Assembly (NCBI RefSeq): GCF_026341275.1
Contig: NZ_JAIFZO010000002.1
Span: forward strand, 508,361-572,360
Reading direction: 5' to 3'
From: Streptomyces ortus
Lineage (GTDB): Bacteria > Actinomycetota > Actinomycetes > Streptomycetales > Streptomycetaceae
Length of the DNA stretch: 64,000 bases
The notes under the pieces are model-generated. The model did no database searches. It saw only the letters and a program-made list of their open reading frames with translations, and was not told the origin of the DNA. Below are positions 11,194 through 63,728 of the stretch, in pieces. Within the stretch, counting starts at the first letter, position 1. Each line of letters opens with the position of its first letter. Both the position numbers and the translations under genes were made by a program.

Positions 11194-11535
11194 GAAAAAG
11201 GTGCTCCGGCTCAAGGTAGATACCCCTCCAGGTTACGCGCCTTTAACGCCCCCCAGCCCCCGGGCCCACTCCCACTTTCCAGGGGCGCGGGAACTGCGCA
11301 CGCCCACCACGGCAGGCCCCCACACCCTCAGACCCGCTCCCACCCCCACCACCTCCAGGGGCGCGGGGAACTGCGCGACTCCCACACCGAGCGACCCGCA
11401 CACCTCAGACCCCGCCTCAGCCCCATCACTCCAGGGCAACGGCACGTCCGCTACGGCAGGCCCCCACACTCCTGGCCCCGGGGCCCTGGCCTCGGCCCCA
11501 CATCCCCGACGGCCTTCGCCGGAGGCGCACGCCCC
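11194..11535. other. Gene-free stretch between fmt and rsmB
   Basis: 342 bp holding two intact copies and one decayed copy of the dispersed GC repeat and the short rsmB upstream region. Nothing else recognisable. The apparent C-terminal extension of fmt into this stretch comes from a one-base shift and carries no conserved sequence. Confidence 0.6.
11280..11480. repeat. Dispersed GC repeat, two clear copies and one degenerate
   Basis: Cores at 11280-11299 (CAGGGGCGCGGGAACTGCGC, one G shorter) and 11356-11376, with a decayed copy near 11431. Flanks are repeated as well: ACGGCAGGCCCCCACAC occurs at about 11309 and again at about 11454. Same family as 2198-2436, here just downstream of fmt. Confidence 0.8.
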
Positions 11536-13276: not shown

Positions 13277-13608
13277 CGCCCACACCGAGCGGCCCCGAAG
13301 CGGTTCCTTGTCTGCCCCCGAGAAACGTCGGGGGCAGACGCACGTCTCCGGTCGCCACTCTCCCCCGCCCTTCCGGAGGTGGCTCGGAGAGCCGATGGGC
13401 CGACACATCGCCGGACCGGCGGGTCGGCAGACCAGATCGGCCGGCCGGCCGGCAGGTCAGCGGGCAGGCAGGTCAGCGGGCAGGGAAGCCGCTGAGCCGA
13501 CAGATCGCCGGGTCGTCAGGTCGGCAGGTCGGCAGGTCGGCAGGTCAACGGGCCAGCGGGTCGGCGGGTCGGCGGGTCGGCGAATCGGCAGGTCAGCGGA
13601 CCGGCAGG
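13277..13608. other. Gene-free stretch between convergent 12719 gene and priA
   Basis: 332 bp. The first ~130 bp hold nothing recognisable apart from an imperfect inverted repeat around 13312-13335 (TGCCCCCGAGAAACGTCGGGGGCA), a likely terminator for the plus-strand gene. The rest is the 8-bp tandem repeat array annotated separately. Confidence 0.6.
13313..13336. terminator. Hairpin downstream of the HTH-like gene
   Basis: TGCCCCCGA / TCGGGGGCA, a 9-bp stem around a GAAACG loop, about 35 bases after the stop codon of the plus-strand gene and before the repeat array. Likely a factor-independent type terminator, as commonly seen in Streptomyces without a U tract. Confidence 0.65.
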
Positions 13609-13610
13609 TC
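13411..13610. repeat. 8-bp tandem repeat array (GGTCGGCA/GGTCGGCG type)
   Basis: About 200 bp made of reiterated octamers such as GGCAGGTC and GGCGGGTC, best preserved at 13514-13545 and 13556-13582, with interspersed AGCGGGCA variants. The array runs into the priA stop codon (13609-13611). Its unit is not a multiple of three and it carries no gene. It separates two convergent genes. Confidence 0.85.
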
Positions 13611-17345: not shown

Positions 17346-17603
17346 AACGCTCCCTGTGGTTGCAGCGGCTGCTGGCTGATCATTGGCGGACGGCCGGGAG
17401 CTGCGCCCGGCGTCGTCCGAGAACAGTTTATCGGTCGCACTCCGTCGCGGGGTCACTGTCTCGCCTCTCGGAAGCGCTGTGACCTGCGGCACGGGCATTC
17501 TGCGACACGATTCACCGTCTCCGCCAGGTTCCCACACCCGGGTGCGCCGGTGAAAAGGGGTGGGCGGAAGTGATAAAGGGGTCTCCGGAAGTCGCCAGGC
17601 CGT

Positions 17604-27031: not shown

Positions 27032-27657
27032 CGTGCGCCTTCCGTGTCGTTGCTCTGGTCGATCATGTGGTTCAGGGTGTCGACCCATTCGTTGTGCTCC
27101 GCCGCGTGGTCGGAGCGGAACCCGGAGTCGATCAGCTTGTCGCCGTGTTCCCAGGTGACGACGAGCAGGCCGCCCTCGGAGAGGACCTTGCCCGCGATGC
27201 CCTTGTCGAGCCGGGCCTCGCGCAGTCGCCCGCGGGGGACGAAGAAGTCGGCCGCCCCGGGGCGTACGACGTCCAGGCCCGCGTCCGTCAGGGTCAGCTC
27301 GGCCCTGCTGCGGGTTCCCAGGCCGTGCGCCACGATGCGGTCGAGCCACTGCCCGGCCGTCGTCGAGCCGTGGTAGCGGCCGGTCATGGTCAGTCTGGCC
27401 GCACCGGGCTCACCCGGCGCGTCGGGCAGCTCGGGCAGGTCGCCCTGGAGGGTGCCGCGCCATTTCCAGCCCTCGCGCATCAGCCAGTAGACGAGCGCGA
27501 TGAACAGGGCGAGGCCCACGAGCCAGCCGATGCGGGCGGCCCAGTCGGTGACCTCGGCGGACTTCTGTTCCGCCGCGAGGCCCGTACCGAGGCGCGTGCC
27601 GAGGCCTGTCCCCAGGTCCGTGGCGATCTGTGCTGCAAGGGGGGTGAGTGATGTCAC
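27028..27657 (-). CDS. Membrane protein of unknown function inside the pyr operon
   Basis: 209 residues. One clear transmembrane helix at about residues 43-63 ([18 protein letters not shown]) is followed by a soluble domain of about 140 residues rich in beta-strand-like segments ([35 protein letters not shown]) that resembles a PH-like fold; this is a guess. No catalytic motif is visible. It starts with GTG overlapping the pyrC stop (GTGA) and ends overlapping the carA start (ATGA), so it is translationally locked between two pyrimidine genes. That context suggests a role linked to membrane placement or regulation of the pathway, but sequence alone does not show it. Confidence 0.85.
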
Positions 27658-32761: not shown

Positions 32762-33886
32762 CTAGAGCGCGAGCAGTTCCTTGGTCGTGATGGTGAGTAG
32801 CTCGGGTCCGCCGTCCGCCTCAGGGCGCACGACGAGCGTGTCATCGATCCTGACACCGCCCCGGCCCGGGAGGTGGACCCCCGGTTCGACGGTGACCGGC
32901 ACGCAAGCGTCCAGTTTACCCATGGCCGCGGGGGCCAACTGCGGCTCCTCGTCGATTTCGAGCCCCACACCGTGTCCGGTCGACTCGGGAAGGCCCTCCG
33001 TGTACCCGGCGGAGTCCAGGACCTGACGGGCCGCGCGGTCCACGTCACGGTAGGCGGCGCCGGGCACGAGGGCCTGGCGGCCGGCCCGCTGGGATGCGAA
33101 GACGAGGTCGTAGAGCTCGATCTGCCAGTCCGCGGGAGAGGTGCCGATGACGAACGTGCGGCCGATCTCGCAGCGGTATCCGTGGTACGTCGCCCCGAGG
33201 CAGACGGAGAGGAAATCTCCCTCCTCGACCCGGCGGTCGGTCGGCCGGTGGTCCCGCCGGCCGGAGTGCGGGCCCGTGCCGACCGACGTCCTGAAGGCCG
33301 GTCCGTCGGCGCCGTGGTCGACGAGGCGGCGTTCCAGTTCCAGCGCGAGATGCCGTTCGGTGCGGCCGACCAGGATCGATTCCAGTAGTTCGCCCAGGGC
33401 CTGGTCGGCGATCTCCGCACCGATGCGCAGACAGGAGATCTCCTCCTCGTCCTTGATGACCCGCAGCTGTTCGACGGCTCCGCCGACGTCCGAGAGCCGC
33501 AGGGCGGGGGCCACGGAACCGATCGCCCGGTGGCGGGCCACGGTGAGGTGGTGCTCCTCCACGGCGAGGGAGTCGGCGCCCTGGGCCGCGGCGAGGTCCG
33601 CGGCGGCGACGGCGGGGTCGCCGCCGGGGGTCGGCAGCGGGTGGATCCGCAGGGCCTCGTCCGGGCGGCCGTCCGCGGCGGTGGTGGCGGTGGCCGGTGT
33701 CGTGCCGGGCACGGTGCCGTGTACGAGCAGGTCCTCGGTTCTGCCCAGGAGGAGGACCGCGCCGGGTGGGGCCACGCCTGTGAGGTAGCGGACGTTGGCC
33801 GGGCGGGTGACCAGCGCGGAGGCGCTGCCGCTGGCGTTGACGCGGTCTCTTAGCCGGGCTCGGCGGGTTTCGTGCACCTCTGGCAT
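32762..33886 (-). CDS. Xaa-Pro peptidase (M24) homologue with altered metal ligands
   Basis: Homologue of prolidase/aminopeptidase P, 374 residues, upstream of efp as in many bacteria. The N-terminal creatinase-like domain (about 1-140) is followed by the pita-bread domain. Of the usual five metal ligands Asp-Asp-His-Glu-Glu, the first is Cys ([12 protein letters not shown]), the second is Glu (YRCEIGRTF), the His is present ([11 protein letters not shown]), the first Glu is present (VEPGVHLPG) and the last is Asp ([11 protein letters not shown]). Activity is therefore doubtful or uses a different metal. The gene may be called pepQ or pepP by synteny; I leave the symbol open. Confidence 0.85.
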
Positions 33887-33959: not shown

Positions 33960-34082
33960 TGCGCAGTTCCCCGCGCCCCTGAAGAGCAAAGATTGCGCCG
34001 TTCCCCGCGCCCCTAAAAGCGAAAGACTGCGCCGTTCCCCGCGCCCCCAAAGACCAAAGACTGCGCCGTTCCCCGCGCCCCT
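33960..34082. repeat. Tandem array of four 34-bp GC repeats
   Basis: Units start at 33960, 33994, 34028 and 34062, exactly 34 bp apart. The core TGCGCCGTTCCCCGCGCCCC is the reverse complement of the element at 2198-2436. The linkers are A-rich (AAAAGCGAAAGAC type). It lies between the kinase stop (34095) and the peptidase start (33886), in the inverse orientation relative to the preceding gene compared with the other copies. Confidence 0.88.
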
Positions 34083-34094
34083 AAAAGGGGTGGG

Positions 34095-35021
34095 CTACCA
34101 CTGGGGTGGGCTTGCGATGGAGCGGGACAGGACCTCGTCCAGGACCTGGGCCGTCTGGGGGACGTCCAGTTGGGAGTTGTCGATGATGGGGAGGCCCGAG
34201 CCGTACCAGCCGGCCATCCGGCCGTGGATGCGGGCCACTTCCTCGTCGGTGAGGCGGCGGTTTCCGGAGCGCTCCGCGTTGCGCTCCAGGACTATCTCCA
34301 GGCCCGGCAGCAGGACGACCGGGAGCAGCCCGGGCCCGACATGCCGCTTCCAGCCGCCGAGGCCCACCACGGGCCGGTCGGGGAAGACCGCGTCGTCGAG
34401 GATGCAGGAGATGTTGTTGGCCAGGAAGTTGCGGGCCGCGAAGCCGCACGTGCGGCGGGCGAGCCGGTACTGGGCCTCCGACATGTCGTTCCACCCCGAC
34501 TGCGGGTCGGCGAAGCCCGAGCGCACCCATTCGCGGACGTCGTCCAGGCTGATGTGCGCCGTGGGCACCCTGCGGTGGTCGGCCCAGTACTTGGCGACGC
34601 TGGTCTTGCCCGCGCCCGCGGGTCCGATGAGCAGCACCGCGAGCGTCGTGGACGTCGGATCGGGGACGCCGGTCGCGGGCGGCGCGCTCGGCATCGGGAC
34701 GGGGCCGCCCGGCGGCAGCTGGACGTGCCCCGTGGTGTCCGGCGTCGGCGGTACGGGAGCGTGGTGCGGGACGGCGTGGTGCGGCGCGGGCGGGTGCCCC
34801 GGCTGATGCGGCGGAGCCGGCGGATGCGCGGGTCCCGGCGGGTGCGGGGCCGCGGGTCCCGGCTGCGCTCCGGCGAAGCCCGGCGGCGGGCCCGCGGGGG
34901 CACCGGCTTGCGCACCGGGGTGGTGCTGTCCCGGGTGTGGTGCGGCCCCCGACCAGCCGGCGGCCGGTCCGTGCCCCGGCTGATGGGGCGGCGGCAGCGG
35001 AGACCCCACTGCGTGCTGCAT
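34095..35021 (-). CDS. P-loop kinase-like ATPase with Pro/His-rich N-terminal tail
   Basis: 308 residues. Residues 1 to about 125 are a disordered Pro/His/Gly/Ala-rich tail. A nucleotide-kinase-like domain follows: Walker A GPAGAGKTSVAKYWAD, then ISLDDVREWVRSGFADPQSGWN, CILDDAVFPDRPVVG and a lid-like ERNAERSGNRRLTDEE. The layout resembles small-molecule or zeta-toxin-type kinases, but no antitoxin gene adjoins it. Substrate unknown. ATG at 35021 gives MQHAVGSPLPPPHQPGHG. It is the last gene downstream of aroB, past a terminator. Confidence 0.82.
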   Translation of the reverse strand: MQHAVGSPLPPPHQPGHGPAAGWSGAAPHPGQHHPGAQAGAPAGPPPGFAGAQPGPAAPHPPGPAHPPAPPHQPGHPPAPHHAVPHHAPVPPTPDTTGHVQLPPGGPVPMPSAPPATGVPDPTSTTLAVLLIGPAGAGKTSVAKYWADHRRVPTAHISLDDVREWVRSGFADPQSGWNDMSEAQYRLARRTCGFAARNFLANNISCILDDAVFPDRPVVGLGGWKRHVGPGLLPVVLLPGLEIVLERNAERSGNRRLTDEEVARIHGRMAGWYGSGLPIIDNSQLDVPQTAQVLDEVLSRSIASPPQW

Positions 35022-39375: not shown

Positions 39376-41170
39376 TGAATTTCTGAACCAACTTCTCGTG
39401 CTCGGCCAGGGTCTTGGTGAAGTCCGTCTTCTTGCCGTCGATGGAGATGAAGAACATCCACGCGCCGCCGTCGGGCTTCAGCGCCGCCCGCAGCGCCTCG
39501 TCACCGGGATTCCCGATCGGCCCGGGCGGAAGACCCTTGTAGAAGTACGTGTTGTACGGGTCGTCGTAGTTGCGGATCTCGGCGACCGAGATATCGATCT
39601 TGCTCTGACCCTTGAGGTAGTTGTACGTCGAGTCGAATTCGAGCTTCTGGTTGGTGACGTCGTTCGACGGCTTCAGCCGGTTGTAGACGACGGACGCCAT
39701 CTTCTTGAAGTCGTCGTGCGTGATGCCCTCGGCCTGGACGAGGCTCGCGACCGTGACGACCTGCAGCGGGTTCTCCAGACCGAGGTCCTTGGCCTTCGCC
39801 TCCAGGTCGTACTTCGCGTACTCCTTGTTGGCCTGCGAGACCATGTCCTTCAGGACGGTCTCGGGCTTCATGTTCTTGTCTGCGGGATAGGTCGCCGGAT
39901 AGAGGAATCCTTCCAGCGGGTCCTTGATGTCGCTGTCGTCGTTCGCCCAGTCCGGGAGCCCGAGGCTCCTGTACTTCTCCTTGGCGATCTTCGCGGTGGT
40001 TCCCTTGGAGAGATCGAGCTGCTTGTCGATCGCCTCGTACACCGTGACATTGCGCTGCCCCTCCCTGACGACCAGATTGTTCTGGCTCTTGGGATCGAGC
40101 ATCAGCGCGACAGCGCTTTCCGCGGACATCTGCTTCTTCAGCAGATAGGAACCCGCCTGGATCTTGTCGCCGTTCTCGTTCTGCGCCTGGGCCGCGACGA
40201 AGGCGTCCACGCTCTTGACGACGCCGGCCGCCTTCAGTTTCTGGCCGATCACCGATCCGAAGGCGCCCTTGGGAATCACGACGGTCACCTGACCGCCGGT
40301 TCCTTCGCCCGCGTAGTCGGGGGCCGAGCCGAAACGGCTTTGATAGAACTGATAGCCGAAATAGGTGACGCCCCCGCCCACCGAGAGGAGGACGAGGGAG
40401 ACCACGAGGCAGGCGCAGCCGTTCTTGCTCTTCTTCTCGCCTTTGCCCTTGCTTCCCTTACCGCCTTTGCCGCTCTTTCCACGCCGGCGGCTCTGCGGGT
40501 CGTCGTCGGTGTCGTCCTCGTCGTCGTCATCGCCCGCGAAGAACGCGTGCTCGCCCTGGTCGGGGCCCGGGTCCCAGTCGGTGCGCTGCGATTCCGGTTC
40601 CGCTTCGGGTTCCGGTTCGGCGCGTCGGCGGCTGGGCGGCTCCGGCGGCGGATAGGCGTCGGGCGTCCCGTAGTAGTCGGGCTGCTGTCCGTTGTACGCC
40701 ACGGCCTGGTTGCCGTAGGGATCGTTCGGGTCACCGCCGTACGGGACCTGCTGCTGCGGCTGCTGGTACTGCTGGCCCGTGTTGTCCCAGCCGCCGTTGT
40801 ACGGCCGGCCGTTCTGGTCGTACTGCTGCGCGTTCTGGTCGTACTGCTGACCGCCCTGGTCGGGGTAGCCCTGCCCACCCTGTCCGCTGTACTGCTGCGG
40901 AGCATGACCGCCGTACTGCTGCTGCCCCTGGACGTAGTGCTGCTGCTGTCCCTGGGCGTACGGCTGCTGCCCCTGGTCGTAGTCGGCCTGCTGGCCCGTG
41001 CCCCAGTCGCCGTACTGCGGCTGCTGCGGCTGCTCCGGATAGTGCTGCGGCTGGCCGCCGTAGGGGGACTGGGCCGCCTGGGCCTCCTGTCCTCCCCATC
41101 CGCCGTCCCCGTACAACGGGTCCTCGGGATGCCACGGTTCGGAGCCTGGGCCCCGGCCATACTCGGTCAT
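39353..41170 (-). CDS. mltG: Endolytic transglycosylase MltG with long Gln/Tyr/Gly-rich cytosolic tail
   Basis: Membrane-bound glycan-cleaving enzyme that ends nascent peptidoglycan strands. At 605 residues it is much longer than the ~340-residue enterobacterial form. Residues 1 to about 160 are a Gln/Tyr/Gly-rich tail (repeats of QQYDQN, GQQQYGG), followed by an acidic and then Lys/Gly-rich linker. A single helix (CACLVVSLVLLSVGGGVTYF, about 250-270) precedes the YceG/MltG domain, with LysM-like part, catalytic Glu in VTVASLVQAEGITHDD, VVYNRLKPSNDV, LEFDSTYNYL and LPPGPIGNPGDEAL. ATG at 41170. It lies between ruvX and aroE. Confidence 0.93.
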   Translation of the reverse strand: MTEYGRGPGSEPWHPEDPLYGDGGWGGQEAQAAQSPYGGQPQHYPEQPQQPQYGDWGTGQQADYDQGQQPYAQGQQQHYVQGQQQYGGHAPQQYSGQGGQGYPDQGGQQYDQNAQQYDQNGRPYNGGWDNTGQQYQQPQQQVPYGGDPNDPYGNQAVAYNGQQPDYYGTPDAYPPPEPPSRRRAEPEPEAEPESQRTDWDPGPDQGEHAFFAGDDDDEDDTDDDPQSRRRGKSGKGGKGSKGKGEKKSKNGCACLVVSLVLLSVGGGVTYFGYQFYQSRFGSAPDYAGEGTGGQVTVVIPKGAFGSVIGQKLKAAGVVKSVDAFVAAQAQNENGDKIQAGSYLLKKQMSAESAVALMLDPKSQNNLVVREGQRNVTVYEAIDKQLDLSKGTTAKIAKEKYRSLGLPDWANDDSDIKDPLEGFLYPATYPADKNMKPETVLKDMVSQANKEYAKYDLEAKAKDLGLENPLQVVTVASLVQAEGITHDDFKKMASVVYNRLKPSNDVTNQKLEFDSTYNYLKGQSKIDISVAEIRNYDDPYNTYFYKGLPPGPIGNPGDEALRAALKPDGGAWMFFISIDGKKTDFTKTLAEHEKLVQKFNERRNKD

Positions 41171-55294: not shown

Positions 55295-55316
55295 TGCGCA
55301 GTTCCCCGCGCCCCTC
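55295..55316. repeat. Single copy of the dispersed GC repeat
   Basis: TGCGCAGTTCCCCGCGCCCC and flanks, the same core as in the arrays at 2198 and 33960, 60 bases after the DUF349 stop. Confidence 0.8.
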
Positions 55317-63704: not shown

Positions 63705-63728
63705 CAGGGGCGCGGGGAACCGCGCGAC
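63705..63728. repeat. Single copy of the dispersed GC repeat
   Basis: CAGGGGCGCGGGGAACCGCG plus CGAC, 48 bases after the ruvA stop. Same family as 2198-2436. Confidence 0.8.

Follow-up and report, generated by a model that had tools for sequence, protein, structure and literature searches.

REP elements show a preference for the 3' ends of genes and for the gaps between convergent genes. Mycobacterial MIRU-VNTR loci are conserved intergenic sites made up of units of tens of base pairs; close relatives differ in how many units each site contains, and this copy number serves as a strain marker. REP, BIME and REPIN elements, with their RAYT transposases, are described in three reports (PMC2817692, PMC3733652, PMC3116915) as short sequences with hundreds of copies that occur singly, as inverted pairs or in arrays and are spread unevenly between relatives; the GTAG and CGTC tags of REPs come from one of these (PMC3733652). 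For hairpins at gene ends, PMC8269248 describes I-shaped (U-poor) intrinsic terminators of GC-rich bacteria, and PMC12207403 describes the intrinsic terminators of Streptomyces as stable hairpins with few Us at a median of 66-76 nt after the coding sequence.

The window analysed here is a stretch of 64,000 nucleotides within an 8.6-Mb contig of the 9.29-Mb genome of Streptomyces ortus. We consider it likely that its array at 33960-34082 arose by local amplification of an extragenic Streptomycetaceae repeat that behaves like a REP/BIME element, with a copy number that changes from locus to locus in a MIRU-like manner. The repeat shares with the REP/BIME/REPIN class all the features listed above from the three reports: S. 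ortus has 832 exact 17-mer cores (422 + 410; reversed pattern 0 + 0), 58 of 60 sampled arrays are extragenic, gene 3' ends and convergent gaps are preferred, and inverted pairs occur. However, it differs from REPs in having no tag and a weak palindrome, with no Y1/RAYT gene detected in S. ortus by Pfam and no linkage to the Y1 genes examined. As tag, cognate transposase and linkage are all missing, the repeat is not filed with the RAYT-associated REPs. With MIRU-VNTR it has in common a conserved locus and a variable copy number, but its sequence and unit length are different, and its exact cores are dispersed on both strands. Open-licence PubMed Central papers contained no match to 15-17-base fragments of the core and no description of the repeat family.

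Sequence and forms of the repeat

The family is defined by the core AGGGGCGCGGGGAAC[T/G/C]GCGC followed by a longer tail, the whole element measuring about 46 nt, and has the consensus AGGGGCGCGGGGAACTGCGCGACCAGCC[A/C]CnACGGnCCCGCAGCCG (one copy per locus, from 116 of 120 loci of other genomes among the matches listed). About 14 nt of the core are nearly invariant over 377 aligned copies, a figure that is inflated and partly built in because the loci of other genomes were picked by exact core match. In an 800-kb sample of S. ortus, made up of 400 kb around the window and four further 100-kb blocks, 141 copies with at most two mismatches were identified in 60 arrays, 26 of which are single copies, while the reversed control gave 7 matches. 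The Rfam scan of the window returned only a Streptomyces-metK RNA (17350-17464, - strand; 120 bits, gathering score 44.2), and the repeat is not covered by any family; at eight loci carrying the element, five matches up to E = 5 were obtained, none reaching the gathering score.

The core is a partial palindrome (GCGC-N8-GCGC), and its commonest variant in S. ortus, G at position 15, disrupts one pair of the extended stem. Upstream of the core, an arm that pairs with AGGGGCGC is enriched above chance, a stem of at least 7 being present in 48/116 copies of other species (among the matches listed) vs 6% of shuffled upstream sequence, and in 19/56 S. ortus arrays vs 8%. Without the arrays that have an inverted copy upstream, the share in S. 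ortus falls from 34% to 23% (11/47 vs 7% shuffled), and that in other species is 46/114 vs 6% among the matches listed. No compensatory covariation was detected for either stem, tail pairing included, in the 377-copy alignment.

Copies are spaced at 28-29, 34-37, 41-43, 51-53 or 67-76 bp. The S. ortus sample contains ten adjacent -/+ pairs, nine of them with gaps of 2-8 bp; only one of 11 opposite-strand neighbours is converging, and single or same-strand arrays dominate. In another genome (G179, loci L191-L204), converging core pairs about 108 bp apart and with similar inner sequence are common among the matches listed. Their outer flanks are partly complementary in 7 of 14 aligned pairs, and therefore the core need not be the end of the element. 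A further form carries a module with its own GCGGCGGAGCCGC hairpin in place of the loop that reads AGTT on the opposite strand, and was seen at 10 places in nine of the collected loci (L254, L216, L217, L083, L084, L088, L132, L137 and L166). At the site orthologous to the array at 33960-34082, two sister genomes, G104 (L254) and G531 (L255), differ by just this exchange, with 29 nt and 4 nt, respectively, between identical stems.

The array at 33960-34082 and its orthologous sites

The array lies on the - strand, flanked by an AAA_33-domain gene (34095-35021, - strand; stop codon 34095-34097), whose stop is 12 bp before it, and a gene for an M24 peptidase with a creatinase N-terminal domain (32762-33886, - strand), whose start is 74 bp past it. 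Counted from the stop codon, unit 1 (34062-34082, - strand) has a G-type core, unit 2 (34028-34061, - strand) a G-type core with one mismatch, unit 3 (33994-34027, - strand) a G-type core (AACGGCGC), and the farthest, unit 4 (33960-33993, - strand), a T-type core (AACTGCGC) that is followed by AACCAGCCCCCAGCCCGC, similar to the tail consensus of the family. Mismatches to the 20-mer core on the - strand are 0, 0, 1 and 0 in the order of the coordinates, and the three G-type units are separated by short linkers. Core matching bears out the unit starts 33960, 33994, 34028 and 34062 and the exact 34-bp period of the initial annotation, and the linkers it had called A-rich are so on the + strand (GAAGAGCAAAGAT and similar). 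Folding predicts a short hairpin, CCCCTTTTAGGGG (34078-34090, - strand), in which an upstream arm pairs with the AGGGG start of the core. Compared with shuffles, the array folds better on the transcribed strand (z -2.19) and not on the other (z 0.15), and a scan for U-rich terminators had no match at the array.

Four other loci of the family were found in the window. A second array (2199-2434, + strand), which includes more degenerate units as well, lies 13 bp away from the stop of a gene that ends at 2448 on the - strand, and its 36/72-bp spacing agrees with the earlier remark that the two arrays differ in period. Two copies at 11280-11376 (+ strand), the one at 11280 with a 1-bp deletion and the second (11357-11376) exact, lie 49 bp away from the stop codon of a gene for a formyltransferase. 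The single copy at 55296-55315 (- strand) lies between the convergent genes DUF349 and RelA/SpoT, 61 bp from one stop and 89 bp from the stop of the convergent gene, and another single copy with a C-type core (AACCGCGC; 63706-63725, + strand) is 50 bp from a stop, with the start of a RuvB gene 95 bp away on its other side. All five loci are therefore just past stop codons, as had been noted, at distances of 13, 49, 12, 61 and 50 bp in the order of their coordinates. In total, 12 cores with no more than one mismatch were counted in the window, and the reversed window gave five matches with at most three. Two other tandem repeats, with periods of 8/16/24 bp (13511-13610) and 21/24/45 bp (40809-40997), were reported in the window by a tandem repeat finder.

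For orientation, the initial annotation had described four loci as alike relative to the preceding gene and the array at 33960 as inverted. Four loci are indeed antisense and one is sense to the gene whose stop precedes, but the 55296 copy, being antisense to one convergent gene, is sense to the other. The comparison of 58 orthologous sites, S. ortus included and representing part of the genomes matched, gave 16 sites with a standard core (at most three mismatches), three with the loop-insert form and 39 with neither. In all 16 standard-core sites, S. ortus included, the strand is identical, sense to the upstream gene, so that the orientation described as inverted is the one normally found here. 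Among the 39 sites with neither form, the best match had at most six mismatches in 30, vs 15 in the reversed control, and some of these sites have therefore probably decayed rather than never been occupied. The presence of the element at the locus requires at least six changes on a quick tree of the upstream gene, in which 21 of 55 inner branches are poorly supported.

The number of copies at the locus is four in S. ortus, three in G109 (90% identity) and one each in G604, G128 and G643 (95% identity), that of G643 being a single full-length copy. The S. ortus clade has the site throughout with differing copy numbers, which argues that the site is old and the array a local expansion; the 34-bp array looks like a recent one. 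Genome G061 (locus L262), which holds only 20 cores, has four copies at about 70 bp at its orthologous site, a local expansion that arose independently.

Placement, distribution and turnover

Of the 60 arrays in the 800-kb sample, 25 were located in convergent gaps, 32 in tandem gaps, one in a divergent gap and two inside called ORFs (26, 31, one and two in a separate round of assignment), vs 15% convergent, 52% tandem and 33% divergent expected by intergenic length. Both the convergent excess (p = 2.9e-7) and the divergent deficit (p = 2.6e-9) persist when the arrays of the window are left out (p = 1.6e-7 and 1.8e-8, respectively), and the deficit is weaker when gaps are counted by number (p = 0.0007). 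An array edge is at most 100 bp from a stop in 53/60 cases, and 27 of the 32 arrays in tandem gaps are nearer to the stop than to the next start. Genes were called by our own codon-usage caller with a coverage of 0.78-0.88 by block, and gene starts are approximate for this reason. Other genomes are similar among the matches listed: 135 arrays in 120 loci include 53 convergent, 53 tandem and 10 divergent cases, with 4 inside genes and 15 at a locus edge. The median distance to a stop is 40 bp.

The placement rule at gene 3' ends that had been proposed from the window is thus strongly supported, 57 of the 60 arrays lying in tandem or convergent gaps. The single divergent case among 58 intergenic arrays speaks against a promoter role, which had been disfavoured at the outset. 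In contrast, a shared orientation does not hold as a rule of the family: arrays in tandem gaps of S. ortus and other species were antisense in 44, sense in 27 and mixed in 14 cases (two-sided p = 0.057), which amounts to a weak bias at most. A polarity by replichore was considered and set aside: among the matches listed, contig C2 has + copies only, but these omit the - strand array of the window itself, and stretches of genome G155 hold both strands. As for the proposed choice between a post-transcriptional role and an insertion-site preference, the placement behind it is supported, but placement does not settle that choice, since the same pattern would be expected if copies were selectively removed from coding and promoter regions. 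According to PMC1590033, stem-loops favour convergent over divergent gaps in all bacteria studied there, and the placement of the repeat alone is therefore not unusual for a hairpin.

The repeat family occurs in Streptomycetaceae among the genomes sampled. At least one core was present in 94 of 150 Streptomyces genomes, at least 10 in 66 and at least 100 in 21 (range 0-1045, the highest in G109); counts of 1-2 may be due to chance, because the reversed control reaches 1-2 in some genomes. Individual counts include 15 copies in S. violaceoruber NRRL S-981, 77 in S. viridochromogenes DSM 40736, 29 in S. seoulensis A01, 134 in S. lincolnensis L4 and 8 in S. anandii JCM 4720. Two genomes at similar distance from S. 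ortus differ more than 10-fold, with 57 copies in G087 (85% identity at the query gene) and 698 in G128 (87%). In the family sample, cores were identified in 55 of 81 genomes and 12 of 17 genera, and the loci of other genomes among the matches listed bear the names Streptomyces, Kitasatospora, Streptacidiphilus or Actinacidiphila. The phylum sample yielded 8 of 198 genomes, namely seven of the eight from the same genus and one single hit elsewhere; none of nine other genomes of the class had a core. The pattern search covered the genus, the family and this phylum sample. Fourteen of 72,556 plasmid records carry the core, all from Streptomyces; eight were inspected, and the seven annotated ones comprise two convergent gaps, four tandem gaps and one overlap with an annotated gene. 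The only phage match, weak and partial (E = 0.09), came from a Microbacterium phage with two records. In two zero-copy genomes (200 kb each), the top noncoding 14-mers occurred 5 and 6 times, vs 30 times in 200 kb of S. ortus; in these stretches the niche is filled by no comparable repeat.

Site turnover was followed between stretches of 400 kb from S. ortus, 160 kb from G643 and 240 kb from G109. All 11 mapped S. ortus arrays are present in G643, the other 12 of 23 being unmapped against its 160 kb, and 12 of 14 are present in G109 (9 not mapped). Conversely, 11 of 19 mapped G643 arrays are present and eight absent in S. ortus (1 of 20 not mapped), and 16 of 20 are present and four absent in G109; G109 arrays are present in 12 and absent in 7 of 19 mapped cases in S. 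ortus (3 of 22 not mapped) and present in 16 of 16 in G643 (6 of 22 not mapped). Sites are thus lost as well as kept between relatives; G109 has five of the eight G643 arrays that S. ortus lacks, which suggests losses in S. ortus. Where both genomes carry the element, the strand set agrees in 74 of 78 comparisons and the copy number differs in 57, a locus being able to enter these figures repeatedly, once per direction of comparison. There was one clean gain, a single full-length copy found only in G643 at a site that is empty in S. ortus and G109; it was placed beyond an existing hairpin, and no target duplication was obvious at it. The G643 array at 27054, missing from both other genomes, was rejected as another clean gain, G109 having a tail-like trace at the site.

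Origin and possible roles

A REP of the classical kind known from Pseudomonas and E. coli, moved by a RAYT transposase (Y1 HUH), could account for the high copy number, the extragenic location and the inverted pairs and arrays, and Y1-positive genomes do have more copies (median 37 vs 1, p = 0.003, uncorrected for phylogeny or genome size). However, the linked RAYT-like gene that the initial annotation had in mind was not found by Pfam, either in S. ortus or in linkage with the repeat elsewhere. The Y1 family PF01797 had no match in the S. ortus genome, the E. coli control being positive, or in 13 of the 21 genomes with at least 100 copies. Around 21 Y1 genes among the matches listed (20 stretches, 67.5 kb, 12 genomes) there was no copy, vs about 1.4 expected by density, a difference that is weak by itself, and neither a GTAG nor a CGTC tag stands beside the palindrome in the consensus. 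Mobilisation by RAYT is largely refuted as a general rule, and we regard it as very improbable for this family. Reverse transcriptase was likewise rejected as a mobiliser: PF00078 had no match in S. ortus and a single one in G109, which has the most copies, and its presence in 59 of 150 genomes showed no association with copy number (p = 0.47). A third route, in which the core is the terminal inverted repeat of a MITE derived non-autonomously from a DDE insertion sequence, is improbable. The repeat is small and non-coding like a MITE, and the converging pairs of G179 fit that structure, but their partly complementary outer flanks extend past the core, converging neighbours are rare in S. ortus next to single copies and same-strand arrays, and the one clean gain differs from MITE insertion in having no obvious target duplication. 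It seems quite improbable that selection multiplied the repeat as a binding site for a nucleoid or regulatory protein: this would explain the near invariance of the core, inflated as this is by exact-core gathering, but not the avoidance of divergent promoter gaps, copy spacings without a single helical phase, or a range from 0 to more than 1000 copies between congeners.

The strongest competitor is a functional 3'-end element under selection, i.e. a GC-rich hairpin terminator or RNA-stabilising stem that acts bidirectionally between convergent genes. The closeness to stops, the convergent excess, the enriched upstream arm and the strand-specific folding of the array agree with it, as do the published Streptomyces terminators (PMC12207403), which are likewise U-poor stable hairpins after coding sequences; the GC-rich stem after a stop also resembles the I-shaped terminators of PMC8269248. 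The 90 nt after the stop fold at -44.2 kcal/mol with the element vs -38.7 without it (p = 0.004; 48 genes with the element vs 120 sampled of 307 others), but GC content is 0.74 vs 0.71, and the difference is gone after correction for composition by mononucleotide shuffles (z -1.80 vs -1.40, p = 0.35). The repeat further differs from I-shaped terminators in its conserved primary sequence and variable copy number, and neither of its forms is present at 39 of the 58 orthologous sites, despite decayed traces in some. Many congeners have no copy at all, the two zero-copy genomes have no comparable repeat instead, the copy gained in G643 was added beyond a pre-existing hairpin, and the U-rich terminator scan was negative at the array. 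Selection for such a function is therefore rather unlikely as the explanation of the family, even if an effect on mRNA 3' ends, as a stabilising stem or by bidirectional termination, is plausible. The simplest reading is that the repeat is tolerated at 3' ends, where it may have side effects on the ends of mRNAs.

Returning to the locally amplified REP/BIME-like repeat, the ancestor of the clade probably had one full-length copy after the AAA_33 gene. Slippage or unequal recombination would then have amplified it, as a tailless 34-bp unit, in the S. ortus lineage. New sites would have been reached through some trans-acting activity, with copies persisting mainly where they are least harmful, in the interval from a stop codon to the following promoter. 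As no mobilising gene was found, spread by transposition is something that we infer. Both Y1 and reverse transcriptase are absent in 12 of the 21 genomes with at least 100 copies, S. ortus included, and because hundreds of copies exist in genomes with neither enzyme, an undescribed activity comes into consideration. We propose, tentatively and at less than even confidence, that the family is a clade-specific REP-like class with an exchangeable loop, reaching high copy number without Y1 or reverse transcriptase and spread by such an activity.

Streptomyces are heavily mined and engineered, and in some species the repeat sits after many genes. Per-site differences in copy number could be used as strain markers. 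If the repeat shapes 3' ends, it would matter for the choice of terminators in expression constructs, and mobility without RAYT would mean that Streptomycetaceae possess an amplifying activity that is not yet known.
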